64,000 nt of DNA, taken from positions 1 through 64,000 of the forward strand of contig NZ_LMNG01000029.1 in assembly GCF_001423295.1 (NCBI RefSeq). Reading direction: 5' to 3'. Position 1 is the first letter of the stretch. Every line of letters starts with the position of its first letter. The notes below the pieces were generated by a model. That model searched no databases, was not told the DNA's origin, and saw only the letters and a program-made list of their open reading frames with translations. The position numbers and the translations under genes are program-made. Below are positions 6,838 to 56,675 of the stretch, piece by piece. This stretch comes from Methylobacterium sp. Leaf112. Lineage in GTDB: Bacteria > Pseudomonadota > Alphaproteobacteria > Rhizobiales > Beijerinckiaceae.

Positions 6838-7857
6838 TCAGGCGACGAGTGCTGCGAGCCCGTCGCGTGCGTCCCAAGCACTGTGCGCGCTCAGTTCCGC
6901 CGCGAAGACCGTATCGAGCCGCGCCCGCTCCGCCTCGACGAGGGGACCGTCGACCGCCACCGGACGGCAGCGGCCAGCCAGGCCTGGTGCTACGAAGTCG
7001 GGGTTGTGCAGGGCGTGGTCGGAGCCGTCGACAAAGAACGGGCGGTCGCCCCCGTCGATGTAGCTCTCGGCCGGCAGACCTTCGGCGAGCAGGATGTCGT
7101 GGGTCTCGAGCTCGACGTGCCAGTAGGTGACGCTCGTGGCCGGCTCGCGGACGATGGTGGTGCCGTTGATCAAGCACATGATCGGTACGAGCACGCCGCT
7201 CTCGTTTTCGCTATCCGCCCCGACGAGGACGGGATGACCCGCTGACAGACGGAGATCCCGGGCGGGCAAACCAAGGCCGAATGCACCGGCGCGCACCCGG
7301 ATCGGCTGCTGATCATGGAGCAGCGGCTGGCCGGTGCCCTTGAGTTCGCGGTGTCCAATCCAGATGACCGCGCGCGCAACGCCGGAGACGGTCACGGCGA
7401 GGTCGCCAACGCGCATATTCTCGACAGCTACTTCGCCGCGCGTCGTACGGATCAGCGTGCCGGTCGTGAAGCAGACGGGCGCTACATAATCACCCAAGGC
7501 GCCGTTCGAGTCGGCCGTGAAGCGCGTTCTGGTTGCCGATCCAGATCCAAACACCTGGGAATTTGAGAGGATCAAGCGGGTCGACCCTGCACCGGTACCC
7601 GTTTGCGAACTGGTGAACTGGACCATAGATCCATTGTCGTACTGGGTCGCGTAGAACGTCGAAGTGGAAGGAGTCGTAGATCCTGGCAGAGTTCCAGTAA
7701 CTGTAATGGGGTCTCCGACTGCATTGACCGTTCCATTTACAGTCAAAGGACTGGTCGTAGCGTCATCGACCTGAAATGTTGCAGACGGTGCGCCATCATC
7801 CGTTCCAGCAAAGCCAGTCTGGAATACGGTGTTACGGAATACGAGCGGCAAAGCCAT
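6838..7857 (-). CDS. Hint-domain (intein/hedgehog-type) protein
   Basis: A 339-residue protein in two parts. Residues 1-130 are Thr/Ser/Gly/Asp-rich and beta-rich with low complexity, like a surface or secreted adhesin segment. From about residue 133 a Hint domain begins at CFTTGTLIRTTRGEVAVENM, continues through RVGDLAVTVSG and WIGHREL, and then LRLSAGHPVLV, which is the intein block B-like histidine region. This architecture (PF13403-type Hint_2) is widespread in alphaproteobacterial exported proteins and is thought to self-cleave or autoprocess. No classical signal peptide is seen, which would fit type I export. GGGAGGACATC precedes the ATG. It is the first gene of a likely two-gene unit with the methyltransferase. 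Activity is not proven by sequence. Confidence 0.8.
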   Translation of the reverse strand: MALPLVFRNTVFQTGFAGTDDGAPSATFQVDDATTSPLTVNGTVNAVGDPITVTGTLPGSTTPSTSTFYATQYDNGSMVQFTSSQTGTGAGSTRLILSNSQVFGSGSATRTRFTADSNGALGDYVAPVCFTTGTLIRTTRGEVAVENMRVGDLAVTVSGVARAVIWIGHRELKGTGQPLLHDQQPIRVRAGAFGLGLPARDLRLSAGHPVLVGADSENESGVLVPIMCLINGTTIVREPATSVTYWHVELETHDILLAEGLPAESYIDGGDRPFFVDGSDHALHNPDFVAPGLAGRCRPVAVDGPLVEAERARLDTVFAAELSAHSAWDARDGLAALVA

Positions 7858-8399
7858 AGTGATGTCCTCCCAGATTTTTGATTATTAAATAAACTGATTT
7901 GTACTCATCGCTTCAAATAAACGCGCTTCAGAGACGAGATCTCATTCAATATTCATCACAAAACCCGTTAGATAGATATTTTCAAAGCGGCCGAGCACGT
8001 TGTCCTGTCATGACAGAAACGTACGACTTCATAAAGTTCGGAAAGGCCATTCTAAGAAATCAAACTGGTCGCAGCTTGAGAAGCGTTGAATGCGTTGCGC
8101 ACAAGCAACAATTCTTCCAATCCAGTTGGCGATTTAGGCAGAATAAGAACGTCGTGCCGGGATATTTTGGCAAAATCGATTTCCGTTTTTGAAGATCGCC
8201 TCTGCTTAAGAAGATCGACTCTTTTCCTGCAGATAGCCATCGAGGCTATCGAGGTCGCAGTGAGCCGCACCTGCTGAAGTGGTCCACCCTTTGGTATGGG
8301 CTGTTGGGGCTGTGGAGTTGACCCACTTTGAGGTCCATGGCCTATGCAAAATCTTGGGTTGTGACAGCTTGGCCGGTGAAGGCCCGAGGCGTGAAGCTG

Positions 8400-8480
8400 C
8401 ACATGGCGTATGAGGTTGGTCGGCGTTGTAGAGGCCCTGCATTCCTCAATGAGTTTACATGCATCGGCTGCATCGAAATG
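8400..8480 (-). pseudogene. frameshifted IS3-type transposase C-terminal remnant
   Basis: On the minus strand one frame reads HFDAADACKLIEECR. After a shift of frame it continues LYNADQPHTPC. Together these resemble the C-terminal integrase-core end of IS3-family transposases, of the general form W-F-x-x-L-x-x-A-x-x-x-I-E-x-W-R-x-x-Y-N-x-x-R-P-H-x-x-L-G. No intact start, upstream catalytic region or terminal inverted repeats were found, so this would be a decayed fragment. Recognition by eye only. Confidence 0.4.
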
Positions 8481-8983
8481 CGCTTGCTGAAAGTTGATTG
8501 AGCCGATTCAAGTCCAGATTTGTTGGAAGCTCGTCGAATGGCAGCTTCCTACGAAATGGAATGGAAAGCAGACAGGCAGGAAACCACCCGACCCAGTCGC
8601 AGAGCGGCCAGCCAGCCCCCGACCCGACTTTGCCGGATAAGCCGCTCTCCGCCATCCGCCGGAAGCGGTCGTGCGTCGATCGTGAGGGGGGCAGCGGCGC
8701 CACATCGGCGGGCCTTCGCCCGTGAGCGGGAGAGGGGCCGCCTTTGCTGAAAGGGTGAGCCCCGATGCGGGCGGCCCCGATCTCGTCGGGTCGACACCGT
8801 CGGCTCGTCCGGGGTCGAGATCCGACTCCGCGGCGTCCTGGTGGATGACCTGAAACTTCGCGCCGACCCGTTCCGTACCGACGCGAGAGGATAGGATCGC
8901 GCCCAGGCAAAAGCCTTGATGTGAGCGCGGGATGACTCTTGCAAGATCATCAGAGTATCGGAAAGTAATTCTTCGTTCTTTCG

Positions 8984-9008
8984 GGAACAACGATACAATC
9001 ATGCTGTT
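8984..9008 (+). promoter_or_regulatory. EcfG/general-stress-type promoter candidate
   Basis: GGAAC (8984-8988) - 16 bases - TGTT (9005-9008), 45 bp before the ATG of the Met-rich peptide gene. Alphaproteobacterial general-stress promoters are GGAAC-N16/17-CGTT, or GGAAC-N18/19-TT in looser form. This copy differs only at the first base of the -10 element. Confidence 0.45.
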
Positions 9009-9053
9009 GTCTCGTGGGTTGGATAAGATGTTCACCTCCACAGGAGATCACAC

Positions 9054-9287
9054 ATGAAGACGTTCACCCTTGCGCTGACCGCCTTGACCGCCCTCGGCGG
9101 CATCGCCCTCGCCGCCGGTTCGGCCACGGCCGCCCCGATGTCCGTCAACGGCCTTCAGTCCGAGAGCGGCGTCACCCAGGTCCGCATGGACCGCAGTGAG
9201 CGGATGATGATGAAGAAGCGCATGATGCGGAAGAACATGATGAAGCGCCGCATGATGAAGAACCGGATGATGAACCGCGGCATGTGA
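9054..9287 (+). CDS. secreted Met/Lys/Arg-rich pentad-repeat peptide
   Basis: A 77-residue protein with a clear Sec signal peptide: MKTFT, a hydrophobic core, then an Ala-rich cleavage region near residue 26 (SATAAP). After a short linker the last 30 residues are almost only Met and basic residues. They follow a five-residue period: KRMMR, KNMMK, RRMMK, NRMMN. The DNA shows the matching 15-bp period. The family resembles periplasmic MxK-type pentapeptide-repeat proteins, but I cannot assign a function. Met pairs suggest soft-metal (copper or silver) binding or a methionine-sulfoxide sink; the strong positive charge suggests binding to membranes or DNA. CAGGAGATCAC is an excellent ribosome-binding site. 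A stress-type promoter candidate lies upstream and an imperfect hairpin downstream. Confidence 0.8.
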   Translation: MKTFTLALTALTALGGIALAAGSATAAPMSVNGLQSESGVTQVRMDRSERMMMKKRMMRKNMMKRRMMKNRMMNRGM

Positions 9288-9308
9288 TCTCGAATACGCG
9301 ACGCTTTC

Positions 9309-9332
9309 GGAGGTCCCGACGCAGGGGCCTCC
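9309..9332 (+). terminator. imperfect hairpin after the Met-rich peptide gene
   Basis: GGAGGTCCC (9309-9317) pairs with GGGGCCTCC (9324-9332) with a single G-T wobble and a 6-base loop. It is 21 bp past the stop codon. No T-run follows, so termination strength is uncertain. Confidence 0.4.
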
Positions 9333-9423
9333 ACCCCGACGGCCACGACTTCGAAGAAGACCGTTTGGCTCGCAACCGACCCGCTCTACGTCCGGGATCG
9401 GCGACGTCGAGCGTCGCCGAAGG

Positions 9424-9564
9424 ATGTACAGGCATCCCGTGGTCGTCCGCATCACGCAGTGGGTCGATGCGGTGTGCCTTCTGGCCCTGCGCACGAGCGG
9501 CCTCCGGGTCTTCAACGCTCACCCGGCCCTGTACTGGGGCAACGTCTCGACCTTCGACAGCCAG
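9424..9564 (+). pseudogene. truncated N-terminus of a cytochrome b561-type membrane subunit
   Basis: The first 47 codons read as the start of a di-haem cytochrome b subunit of the thiosulfate-reductase/sulfite-oxidase anchor kind. It begins MYRHPVVVRITQWVDAV, a first transmembrane segment bearing the R-I-T-x-W motif, then SGLRVFNAHPALYWGN. After about residue 47 the frame loses all family resemblance, with no further transmembrane helices and none of the later haem histidines. The gene is therefore truncated, probably by deletion. No molybdopterin oxidoreductase partner lies nearby, which fits decay. Confidence 0.55.
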
Positions 9565-10083
9565 ATCACCCGACGAGGTCCTACGGCGAGCCGGCCGGGG
9601 GCGCCCGACCGCGCCGTGGAAACCGGCCGATCCGATAGCCGGGAGACACGTTCCGCGCGCATCCGGCTTCGATCCGAGCCGCCCCCTATGACGAAGCGGC
9701 GCGTCTGCGCCGGGACGAGGCGGCCGGGCGGCATGACCGCGTCGACGAGGCAGCGGGCGAGCCGTTCCGGCGGTTCCACGTGCAGTCGAAGGGCCTTGGG
9801 AGAGGGACGCCGTTTCGACCCGAGAGGGCCAAGCCCGGCGCCTCGTCGGTCGGCTCTCAGGCCAGTTGGCGATACGGCCCGTGCGCTCACGGCCAGCCGC
9901 GATGCCCCCGCCCGGAGGCGCGGGATGCGTCAGGTTTCCGCCGCGCGCAGCCATCCAGGCCCGTCGGGAGACGGCGGCGCCCGGCCCGGCGAAGCCGCCC
10001 GGCCGAAGCATTCCACGTCTCTCCGGCCGCGAGCGATTCCTGGCACGAGCACGGCAAGGCGGCGCGATGGCCGGCCGTGACGC

Positions 10084-10353
10084 TCAGTAGCTGTAGCTGC
10101 GCTGGTTGTAGCCGCCGCCGCGCTGCTGGACGCGGGAGCCGTAGTCGATCTCGCGCTCGCGCCGGGCCTTGCGGTTGGCGAGATAGCGCCCGCCGAGACA
10201 GCCCGCCACGGCACCGACGACGCCGCGCTCGGCGAGGTAATGGCCGGCGAGGCCGCCGATGATCGCGCCCTTGATGCAGCCCTTGGCCTCGGCCGCGCCG
10301 GCGCTCACCAGGGTGGCGAGGGCGACGGCCGACAGGGTCGAAACGATCCGCAT
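10084..10353 (-). CDS. small exported glycine-zipper protein
   Basis: An 89-residue protein. An N-terminal Sec signal peptide (MRIVSTLSAVALATLVSAGA, cleavage near AEA-KG) is followed by a glycine-zipper stretch, GAIIGGLAGHYLAERGVVGA then VAGCLGGRYLA, that resembles the membrane-inserting part of outer-membrane Rcp/17-kDa-type proteins. A basic tail, ARREREIDYGSR, ends in Gly/Tyr/Ser-rich sequence. Two cysteines flank the zipper. GGAGGATCACC immediately precedes the ATG at 10353, which rules out the longer in-frame start at 10437. A GGAAC-N17-TGTT promoter candidate lies just upstream. Likely an envelope stress or structural protein; the exact role is unknown. Confidence 0.8.
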   Translation of the reverse strand: MRIVSTLSAVALATLVSAGAAEAKGCIKGAIIGGLAGHYLAERGVVGAVAGCLGGRYLANRKARREREIDYGSRVQQRGGGYNQRSYSY

Positions 10354-10381
10354 GGTGATCCTCCACGATTGCGGAGGATGA

Positions 10382-10407
10382 AACACCGTCACGCTCCACC
10401 CCGTTCC
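10382..10407 (-). promoter_or_regulatory. EcfG/general-stress-type promoter candidate
   Basis: On the minus strand GGAAC (10407-10403) is followed after 17 bases by TGTT (10385-10382), which places the start site about 20 bases before the glycine-zipper start codon region. Same motif and spacing class as at 8984-9008 and 12162-12186. Confidence 0.4.
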
Positions 10408-10462
10408 GGGACGCCGCTCACTTCGTTCACGCCGCAATGCGGCCCGTCGACAAACTCAGAAA

Positions 10463-10523
10463 GGGGTCAGGCCGCGACGCGGCCTGCGAGAAGTCAAATC
10501 GGGGTCAGGCCGCGACGCGGCCT
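10463..10523. repeat. 23-bp direct repeat duplicating the glcD 3' end
   Basis: GGGGTCAGGCCGCGACGCGG followed by CCT occurs at 10463-10485 and again at 10501-10523. The second copy contains the last codons and stop of glcD; the first lies just downstream in the non-coding strand direction. Each copy contains the palindrome GGCCGCG-A-CGCGGCC, so the duplication also doubles a hairpin at the transcript end, which may act as a terminator. Confidence 0.8.
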
Positions 10524-12249: not shown

Positions 12250-12612
12250 ATGCGTCATCTCATCCTCGGCGTCGCCCTCGCGCTCGTGCTCCCTCTCTCC
12301 GCCCACGCCGAAGGCGATGCGGCCGCCGGCGAGAAGGCGTTCGCCCCCTGCAAGGCCTGCCACAACTTCGAGAAGAACGGCGTCGGCCCGACCCTGAAGG
12401 GTGTCGTCGGCGCGAAGGCCGGCGAAGGTGCCGACGGCTACGCCTTCTCGGCGGCCATGAAGGGCTCCGGCATCACCTGGGACGAGGCCAACCTGCACGA
12501 GTGGCTGACCGACCCGAAGAAGAAGATCCCCGGCACCAAGATGGTCTTCCCCGGCGTCAAGGACCCGAAGAAGGTCGACGACATCATCGCCTACCTCAAG
12601 ACCAAGTCCTGA
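12250..12612 (+). CDS. class I c-type cytochrome (cytochrome c2/c550-like)
   Basis: A 120-residue periplasmic electron carrier. A Sec signal peptide ([20 protein letters not shown]) is cleaved before EGDAAAG. The single covalent haem site is CKACH at about residues 36-40 with His as axial ligand. The sixth ligand is the Met in [10 protein letters not shown] near the C-terminus. The fold signature [15 protein letters not shown] and a final DDIIAYLKT helix match mitochondrial-type cytochromes c. GGAGGAAACAAG precedes the ATG. It likely shuttles electrons to a terminal oxidase or from a periplasmic dehydrogenase; the partner is unknown. The stop codon sits inside an 18-bp tandem repeat. Confidence 0.95.
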
Positions 12613-12654
12613 TCCGAGACCAAGTCCTGATCCGAGACCAAGTCCTGATCCGAG
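12601..12654 (+). repeat. three-copy 18-bp tandem repeat across the cytochrome c stop codon
   Basis: ACCAAGTCCTGATCCGAG occurs three times exactly (12601, 12619, 12637), followed by a diverged partial copy. The first copy encodes the last codons and stop of the cytochrome; the other two are duplicated non-coding copies, each repeating the stop codon. Confidence 0.95.
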
Positions 12655-12714
12655 ACCAAATCCAAATCCCGAGCCCGGCCCGCCACCGGCGGGTCGGTTC
12701 GCCGAGGCAGATCG

Positions 12715-23146: not shown

Positions 23147-24163
23147 TCAGCGCCGCGCCCCGTCGCCGAGGTCGAGGACCTCGACGAGGCTCGAGCGGTC
23201 GCCCCCCGGTTTCGGGCTGCCCACCAGGGTGTGGATGCGCCCATTCGCCACGATGGCGCCGAAGCCGTGGCGCGGGGTGGGCAGGGGGGCGTGCCGGGTC
23301 CAGACATCCCGCGCCGGATCGTAGGCCTCGACGGCGCCGAAGGTGCGGGCGTCCGATTCGCCGCCCATGACGAAGATCCGTCCGCCGAGCACCGCCGCCG
23401 CGGCCCCGCTCCGGGCCGTCGGCATCGGCGCCCCCGTGCGCCAGGCGTCGGCGGCCGGGTCGTAGATCTCGGTCACGGTGCGGTTGCGGGCGGGGTCGCC
23501 GTCGATCCGCCCGCCGATGGCGACGAGGCGGCCGTCCACGGCCTGGACGGCGAGGTGGTCGCGCCGGGTCGGCAGGGCGGCGGCCTCGGTCCAGCGGTCG
23601 CGCGCCGGGTCGTAGACCGCATGGCCGGCCGCGTTGCCGCCGCCCGAGACGCTGCCGCCGACCACGTGGATGCGGTCGCCGATCGCCACCGCGCCCCCTG
23701 CCGCCCGGGCGCTCGGCATCGGCGCGCGCGGGCTCCAGGCATCGGCCTTCGGATCGTAGGCCCAGACCCGGTCGCTCGCCCGCCAGCCTGCGCCGTAGCC
23801 GCCGAAGACGTAGACCCGGTCCCCGAACCCCGCCGCCATGGCGTGGTGGATCGGCGTCGGGAACGCCGCCCCCGTCCGCCATGCGCCGGTGGCCGGATCG
23901 TGGATGAGGAGGCCGGTGGCCCCGTTGTAGTCGCCGATCACGTAGGCGAGGCCCGCCAGCGCGGCGACGGCCACCTCCGAGCGCGGGGCGGGGGCCGGCG
24001 CGGCGGCCCGCCAGGTGCCTGACCCCTCCGGCCCCCCTGCCCCCAGGCGCTCATGGGTGCCCACGGCCTCATGGGTGCCCACGGCCTCATGGGTGCCCAC
24101 GGCCTCATGCGCGCTCGCGGACATCGTGGCCGCGAGGATCAGGACGGCGAGGAAGGCACGCAT
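23147..24163 (-). CDS. exported Kelch-repeat beta-propeller protein
   Basis: A 338-residue protein. A signal peptide (MRAFLAVLILAATMSASA) is followed by three direct copies of the hexapeptide HEAVGT and then six or so Kelch blades. Each blade has the double glycine and spaced Tyr/Trp of the family: YVFGGYGAGWRASDRVWAYD, IHVVGGSVSGGGNAAGHAVY and IFVMGGESDARTFGAVEAYD are examples. It folds as a beta-propeller in the periplasm or outside the cell. Galactose-oxidase-type copper ligands are not evident, so a binding role is more likely than catalysis. Cotranscription with the downstream amine oxidase is likely, although that partner lacks an export signal. Confidence 0.88.
   Translation of the reverse strand: MRAFLAVLILAATMSASAHEAVGTHEAVGTHEAVGTHERLGAGGPEGSGTWRAAAPAPAPRSEVAVAALAGLAYVIGDYNGATGLLIHDPATGAWRTGAAFPTPIHHAMAAGFGDRVYVFGGYGAGWRASDRVWAYDPKADAWSPRAPMPSARAAGGAVAIGDRIHVVGGSVSGGGNAAGHAVYDPARDRWTEAAALPTRRDHLAVQAVDGRLVAIGGRIDGDPARNRTVTEIYDPAADAWRTGAPMPTARSGAAAAVLGGRIFVMGGESDARTFGAVEAYDPARDVWTRHAPLPTPRHGFGAIVANGRIHTLVGSPKPGGDRSSLVEVLDLGDGARR
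24051..24104 (-). repeat. three-copy 18-bp coding tandem repeat in the Kelch gene
   Basis: TCATGGGTGCCCACGGCC occurs three times exactly (24051, 24069, 24087), plus a partial fourth. On the coding strand it encodes A-V-G-T-H-E repeats just after the predicted signal-peptide cleavage site. His and Glu in each unit could bind metal. Confidence 0.95.
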
Positions 24164-56280: not shown

Positions 56281-56675
56281 GGGACACTCCCGGGTCGATG
56301 GCGTGATCGCGGTGCCGCGCCAACCTTCGAAGACCTAGACAAACGCGGTTGAACCGCCGCTTAACGATGCGACTGCGCCGCGCAGGCCTTGGTTAACGAT
56401 GCGACTGCGCCGCGCAGGCCTTGGTTAACGATGCGACTGCGCCGCGCAGGCCTTGGCGGAACGCCGGATCACCGCGCGAGATCTTGATCCGTACGCTTTT
56501 CCGCCCGTATCGCCGCGGCGGAGACCGGCTCCACTTTTCCGCCCGGTGCCCTAGCCAGGACGACCGCGCGCGGCTATAAGCCCGGCCTCGAATCTCCGTT
56601 TGAACACGGTGCCGAGGCGTCCTCCCGGAGGGGGATCGCCTGAGGCGCCCTTTTTGCCATCGACAGGATCATCCC
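56281..56675. other. rpmF upstream region with tandem repeat
   Basis: About 395 bp between divergent comEA-like and rpmF genes. It holds the triple 32-bp repeat at 56361-56456; the remainder should contain both promoters, but no clear elements were seen. Confidence 0.5.
56361..56456. repeat. three exact copies of a 32-bp tandem repeat
   Basis: The unit begins TTAACGATGCGACTGCGCCG and ends CGCAGGCCTTGG. Exact copies start at 56361, 56393 and 56425 with no spacer. The unit contains GTTAAC-like junctions at each boundary. Perfect identity suggests a recent duplication. It lies between divergent promoters. Confidence 0.97.

Follow-up and report, generated by a model that had tools for sequence, protein, structure and literature searches.

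Methylobacterium species are typical of sunlit leaf surfaces. In the genome of Methylobacterium sp. Leaf112, a short gene encodes a peptide that ends in a run of methionine pairs set among basic residues, and the locus raises the question of what so much methionine is for and which partners it works with. We analyzed the gene within the first 64,000 nucleotides of contig NZ_LMNG01000029.1 (the window) and compared it with related loci in 111 genomes of the genus and 248 genomes of the family. The argument refers to the following features of the window.

8984..9008 (+): promoter-like element GGAAC-N16-TGTT, located 70 nt upstream of the ATG and resembling the EcfG-type motif except for one base in the -10 box
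9042..9046 (+): ribosome-binding site, AGGAG
9054..9287 (+): gene for the Met-pair preprotein, 77 residues, ATG start
9054..9131 (+): probable Sec-type signal peptide of about 26 residues, with putative cleavage between SATA and AP
9201..9284 (+): 28-residue tail with five MMxxx pentads
9379..9597 (+): truncated cytochrome b561 remnant, 59% identical over residues 7-79 of 293

The peptide gene, its homologues and its promoter region

The sequence-only reading had described a Met-rich preprotein of 77 residues with a strict basic-basic-Met-Met-basic period. The preprotein is real, and its C-terminal 28 residues (RMMMKKRMMRKNMMKRRMMKNRMMNRGM) hold 12 Met and 12 Lys or Arg, with five Met pairs spaced exactly five residues apart and spacers that are mostly basic. 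Shuffling these 28 residues 200,000 times produced a period-5 run of five pairs in 6 cases; with Met runs kept as blocks, it did so in 151 of 200,000. The N terminus is a hydrophobic leader that extends to the SATA-AP junction and suggests that the peptide is probably exported; the mature form would comprise 50-52 residues, depending on the cleavage point, including 14 Met, 14 Lys or Arg, 3 Asp or Glu, and neither His nor Cys. A dN/dS of 0.15-0.41 against eight close homologues (L003-L010) supports coding on the + strand; antisense ORFs are open as well, both here and in several of the relatives.

Lack of pentad conservation in relatives had been named beforehand as one result that would refute the reading; the pentads are in fact conserved. 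In 39 distinct homologues (49 locus records, in which some places occur twice, e.g. L006 = L032; L002 and L026 are outside this count) each peptide carries 4 to 7 Met-pair units, and the spacing between pairs is exactly 5 in 140 of 169 cases, so that the number varies and the phase is kept. The three-residue spacers are Lys or Arg at 404 of 447 positions, the remainder being Gln, His, Asn, Glu, Ser, and Gly; the register proposed earlier is thus right, but it is not strict. Some homologues contain His, unlike the window peptide. In the tails of 58 distinct homologues we counted 771 Met and 2 Leu (in L051 and L026), where the tail start was set by motif and falls too early in L090, adding one Val and two Ala. 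Selection therefore seemingly acts on sulfur and not on mere hydrophobicity.

A protein search finds the peptide in 101 of the 111 Methylobacterium genomes, yet no family in the catalogues searched matches it above threshold: NCBIfam has no match at E<=1, PHROGs none, and Pfam gives sub-threshold matches only (Neuropeptide_S, DUF4148). Searches of PDB sequences and of PLSDB plasmids returned no usable match and no match, respectively, and the literature matches listed, as excerpted, contain no description of this Methylobacterium peptide. All 22 loci listed in the related-locus search are titled Methylobacterium. A profile of the peptide matches 36 of the 248 family genomes at E<=0.001, of which 16 belong to Methylobacterium, 6 to genus g41 (best match 4.8e-16), and 14 to others, the last all weak (6.6e-8 or worse). 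The own genome holds a second copy (G000:C12:324476-324700; L002, L078) that is 46% identical, has MMRN/MERR repeats, and by our reading of the sequence lies directly after a PhoH-like ORF with no cytochrome b561; the PhoH-linked arrangement recurs in G058 (L111). A third, weak match to the profile lies at G000:C11:55019-55225 (-) with an E-value of 8.9e-7.

The promoter-like element also recurs. For the 58 distinct peptides (62 distinct upstream regions), 51 of 62 regions have GGAAC at a distance of 50-80 nt from the start, and 26 of 62 have GGAAC-N16/17-[CT]GTT no more than 120 nt from it. In the set filtered for RMMM, which among L003-L031 drops L026 (RMML) and also leaves out the divergent L002, the counts are 36 of 37 and 23 of 37, respectively. 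In controls, GGAAC was present in 476 of 20,000 random 25-mers and the full motif in 6 of 5000 random 120-mers. In the other 11 of 62 upstream regions GGAAC is absent or displaced; these include the PhoH-linked copies, in which the element is missing. None of the six class-B peptides checked is preceded by the full motif. The M. extorquens EcfG consensus is given in the excerpted source as GAAC-N16,17-C/GGTT (PMC4814048) and that of Sphingomonas, likewise from an excerpt, as GGAAC-N17-20-GTT (PMC6599016); against the consensus sequences so quoted, the TGTT of the window departs from the former at one base and agrees with the latter. The motif matches make general-stress control of the peptide gene plausible.

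Around this region, 8566-9000 includes about 380-435 nt that are 75-78% conserved in L003, L005, L008, L009, and L010, with no Rfam match. The segment 8260-8451, within or next to a low-GC patch, shares 73% identity with a stretch lying about 4.6 kb downstream from the Leaf465 homologue (L035:4808-5002) and is possibly an insertion-element relic. A protein with a Hint domain (PF13403) is encoded at 6838-7857 (-). Tandem repeats elsewhere in the window comprise an 18-bp repeat of 3.6 copies with 97% matches where a cytochrome c ORF ends (12599-12663) and two perfect arrays, 18 bp x 3.3 at 24050-24109 and 32 bp x 3.0 at 56361-56456.

The redox operon of relatives and its decay in the window

Many relatives have a three-gene unit in which the peptide gene comes first, followed by genes for a cytochrome b561 (PF01292, 1.5e-23) and an MsrP-like molybdopterin enzyme (PF00174, 3.1e-34). 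The best NCBIfam model for the third gene is MsrP (NF003767; 1.2e-27, 97 bits), below the cut-off of 207, and among PDB sequences the gene product is closest to 1xdq (1.6e-16), which is titled 'Bacterial Sulfite Oxidase' and which we take to be E. coli YedY/MsrP. The enzyme has the molybdopterin-binding domain with the Cys, its CVEGW aligning with the CVEAW both of 1xdq and of the MsrP of the own genome. An AlphaFold model of the enzyme (13 aligned rows) had a mean pLDDT of 31.2 and gave no usable fold. At E<=1e-60, 12 of the 248 family genomes contain the enzyme, and two of those 12 belong to other genera.

By the listed coordinates, 58 of 61 class-A cytochrome matches (57 best rows and four fragments) are directly preceded by the peptide, at a distance of no more than 400 nt; of the three without an MM peptide, two begin at contig base 2 or 3, and the remaining one (G106) is preceded by a Met-rich peptide of a different kind. 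Conversely, among the best 100 peptide matches a cytochrome is listed downstream in 58 and absent from the listing in 42, the window included. In the DNA of the window and eight others of these 42 (L099-L103, L108-L110), a piece of cytochrome is present in the window and in L101 (G085:C81), where it sits at the contig end; the remaining seven have none.

Of 65 enzymes tried, 60 could be read, and in all of these the two Mo-domain halves are separated by an acidic stretch of 18-77 residues with a net charge of -3 to -15; in class-A enzymes it spans 58-64 residues, with a mean net charge of -8.6 over 15 rows, two of which (L035 and L106) are one place. The MsrP of the own genome aligns with gaps here. 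Docking of the basic peptide on the enzyme is suggested because of this stretch. In related loci the mean net charge is -11.1 where a peptide is present (20 loci) versus -7.0 where none was found (25 loci, so that the stretch also occurs in its absence), a contrast with a Mann-Whitney p of 3e-5 that is not corrected for relatedness.

Related cytochrome/Mo pairs, roughly 60-75% identical, occur elsewhere in these genomes, several of them next to an ORF that reads as aspartate carbamoyltransferase-like. In 24 of 50 such loci an exported-looking ORF of at least 12% Met lies within 1 kb upstream; 22 of these belong to one family, one is a variant (L083), and one is of the MM type (L085, also included in the adjacency count above). 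With MM-type ORFs set aside, no such ORF was found in 600 random stretches. The other 26 pairs, including both loci outside the genus, have no Met-rich ORF upstream. Between the commoner second family and the MM peptide, BLASTP shows no significant resemblance (E 4.9). Because dissimilar Met-rich peptides precede the same kind of redox pair, methionine supply and reductase appear to belong together, and we regard this as the strongest argument for the link.

In the window the operon is broken. The DNA resembles that of relatives beyond the peptide stop codon to about 9560, after which the similarity fades; about 70 codons of the cytochrome are left, in an alignment with a 4-nt gap, and the remnant reads ITQWVD where most relatives have ITHWVN, the His of which presumably binds heme. 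No gene for the MsrP-like enzyme follows, and the best counterpart in the own genome is 44% identical over a part. Two relatives are in a similar state: at G084:C147 an intact peptide stands beside a cytochrome remnant of 122 residues with three stops, and at G066:C192 beside a remnant of 99 residues with one stop. The G084 genome also has an intact operon, located on a different contig. The own genome encodes a separate full MsrP (420.6 bits), one PF01794 protein, and two more distant cytochrome/Mo pairs; a scan for Met-rich ORFs around those two pairs found only a 47-residue ORF without a leader.

Two other accounts of the conserved DNA were considered. An RNA in the DNA conserved past the peptide stop was rejected, the region being the 5' end of the cytochrome gene; Rfam gave no match over 7850-10500. 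A mobile locus, suggested by about 550 nt common to many relatives, is not needed because the shared block ends at the break of the window operon. Synonymous divergence from L003-L010 is 0.04-0.15 for the peptide gene and 0.27-0.61 for the cytochrome fragment at 9424-9558; the lower value for the peptide gene could come from gene conversion or from constraint at the DNA level.

The decay bears on whether the window copy still functions. It might be a relic heading for loss, an account that is compatible with a sink role for the family and that would suit the truncated partner cytochrome and a dN/dS of 0.68 against the close homologue L035, a value drawn from few changes (two synonymous and five others). 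The ORF, pentads, ribosome site, and GGAAC element of the window are all intact, however, and peptides have stayed intact beside the decayed cytochromes of G084 and G066. We consider it unlikely that the copy is functionless.

Weighing the possible functions

The operon with a predicted methionine-repair enzyme in many relatives makes oxidant scavenging outside the inner membrane the most likely function, and we think it probable that the peptide is a sacrificial, re-reducible methionine sink for envelope oxidants. From the sequence alone, three functions had been guessed at: metal chelation, scavenging of oxidants, and membrane disruption. Scavenging gains strong contextual support from the MsrP-like operons, from the other Met-rich peptides on redox pairs, and from the near-absence of Leu in the tails. 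Membrane disruption is disfavored, and a cationic membrane-active or antimicrobial peptide is highly improbable: 14 Lys or Arg, probable export, and the mild hydrophobicity of Met would fit such a role, but there is no amphipathic helix signal (helical moment 0.14, reached by 76% of shuffles), mean hydrophobicity is low (-0.69), an aliphatic residue hardly ever replaces Met, and the operon partner in many relatives is a reductase.

A periplasmic buffer for Cu(I) or Ag(I), in which thioether pairs would chelate the metal and an MsrP-like enzyme would keep the ligands reduced under copper stress, is a more serious contender. It could draw on the Met pairs and their MxxxM spacing, on the His of some homologues, and on the MsrPQ repair of the copper chaperone CusF, which in the excerpted account ties metal binding to Met repair (PMC9302797). 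The window peptide, however, is strongly positive and has no His or Cys, and we judge this function unlikely. It is very unlikely that the peptide is a structural or ligand-binding basic peptide, directed at lipopolysaccharide, nucleic acid, or another polyanion, with its Met incidental; although the spacers are 90% Lys or Arg and some copies have no adjoining cytochrome, Met is the best kept residue, and the dissimilar peptides beside the same redox pair are also Met-rich.

As a sink for oxidants, the peptide would act in the periplasm after export, its Met pairs consuming strong oxidants, hypochlorous acid-like ones among them, that would otherwise attack envelope proteins. Where relatives keep the complete operon, its MsrP-like molybdenum enzyme would convert the resulting methionine sulfoxides back into methionine, with electrons passing from the quinone pool through cytochrome b561, and the acidic insert of the enzyme may dock the basic peptide. 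In the window genome, where the partner pair has decayed, the peptide would either serve a single time or be regenerated in trans by MsrP and MsrQ-like proteins whose genes lie elsewhere. A broader proposal seems to us evenly poised, namely that Methylobacterium has an envelope methionine-cycling class of its own, built on a quinol-fed cytochrome b561 and an MsrP-like enzyme whose acidic stretch serves for docking, with at least two basic, Met-rich sponge peptides of independent origin. A sponge gene could then persist after loss of its dedicated reductase, with housekeeping MsrP/MsrQ recharging the peptide in trans. If this holds, sacrificial methionine peptides would form a recurrent, convergently built layer of envelope defense in the genus, and the MM peptide would be a simple repeat for studying what Met spacing and charge contribute to scavenging and repair.

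Comparison with known systems

The nearest family model and the nearest solved sequence relative of the third operon gene are both E. coli MsrP (YedY), from which it differs in scoring below the MsrP cut-off and in carrying the extra acidic stretch. MrpX of Azospira suillum, which occurs with YedYZ/MsrPQ and SigF/NrsF, is described in PMC4623255 and PMC8315932 as a periplasmic peptide, rich in Met, whose partner is a Met sulfoxide reductase. The pairing of a Met-rich peptide with an enzyme of the Met sulfoxide reductase type is the likeness to the system so described. An operon with genes for MsrP and MsrQ, as in the MrpX type, was not found here: in relatives the enzyme is MsrP-like below the cut-off and the electron carrier is PF01292, not PF01794, and in the window the redox pair is lost. 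The repeat, too, differs in consisting of MM with basic residues and in having no TIGR02953 match, and the promoter element is EcfG-like.

In Brucella, according to the excerpted PMC8315932, the bcrXQP operon joins a Met-rich peptide to a reductase pair and is induced by HOCl under an ECF sigma factor; BcrPQ are homologous to MsrPQ, and BcrX is an MXKDX repeat protein. The excerpt thus describes the same union of Met-rich peptide and reductase pair in one operon as in the Methylobacterium relatives, but with a different repeat and with promoter elements, recognized by BcrS, that are other than those found here.

MxKDx proteins of TIGR02953 (penta_MxKDx) occur in Methylobacterium itself, above the cut-off in 27 of the 111 genus genomes; the own genome is not among them and has no match to the family. 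They likewise carry a period-5 Met repeat behind a leader but, unlike the MM peptide, pair Lys with Asp, and the MM homologue at G081:C23 scores 23.2 bits against a cut-off of 41. In the four TIGR02953 loci examined, neither a cytochrome b561 nor the operon Mo enzyme nor MsrP was found. On these comparisons, our best reading is that the MM peptide would be a sink like MrpX and BcrX, standing outside TIGR02953 and served in relatives by a different redox partner.
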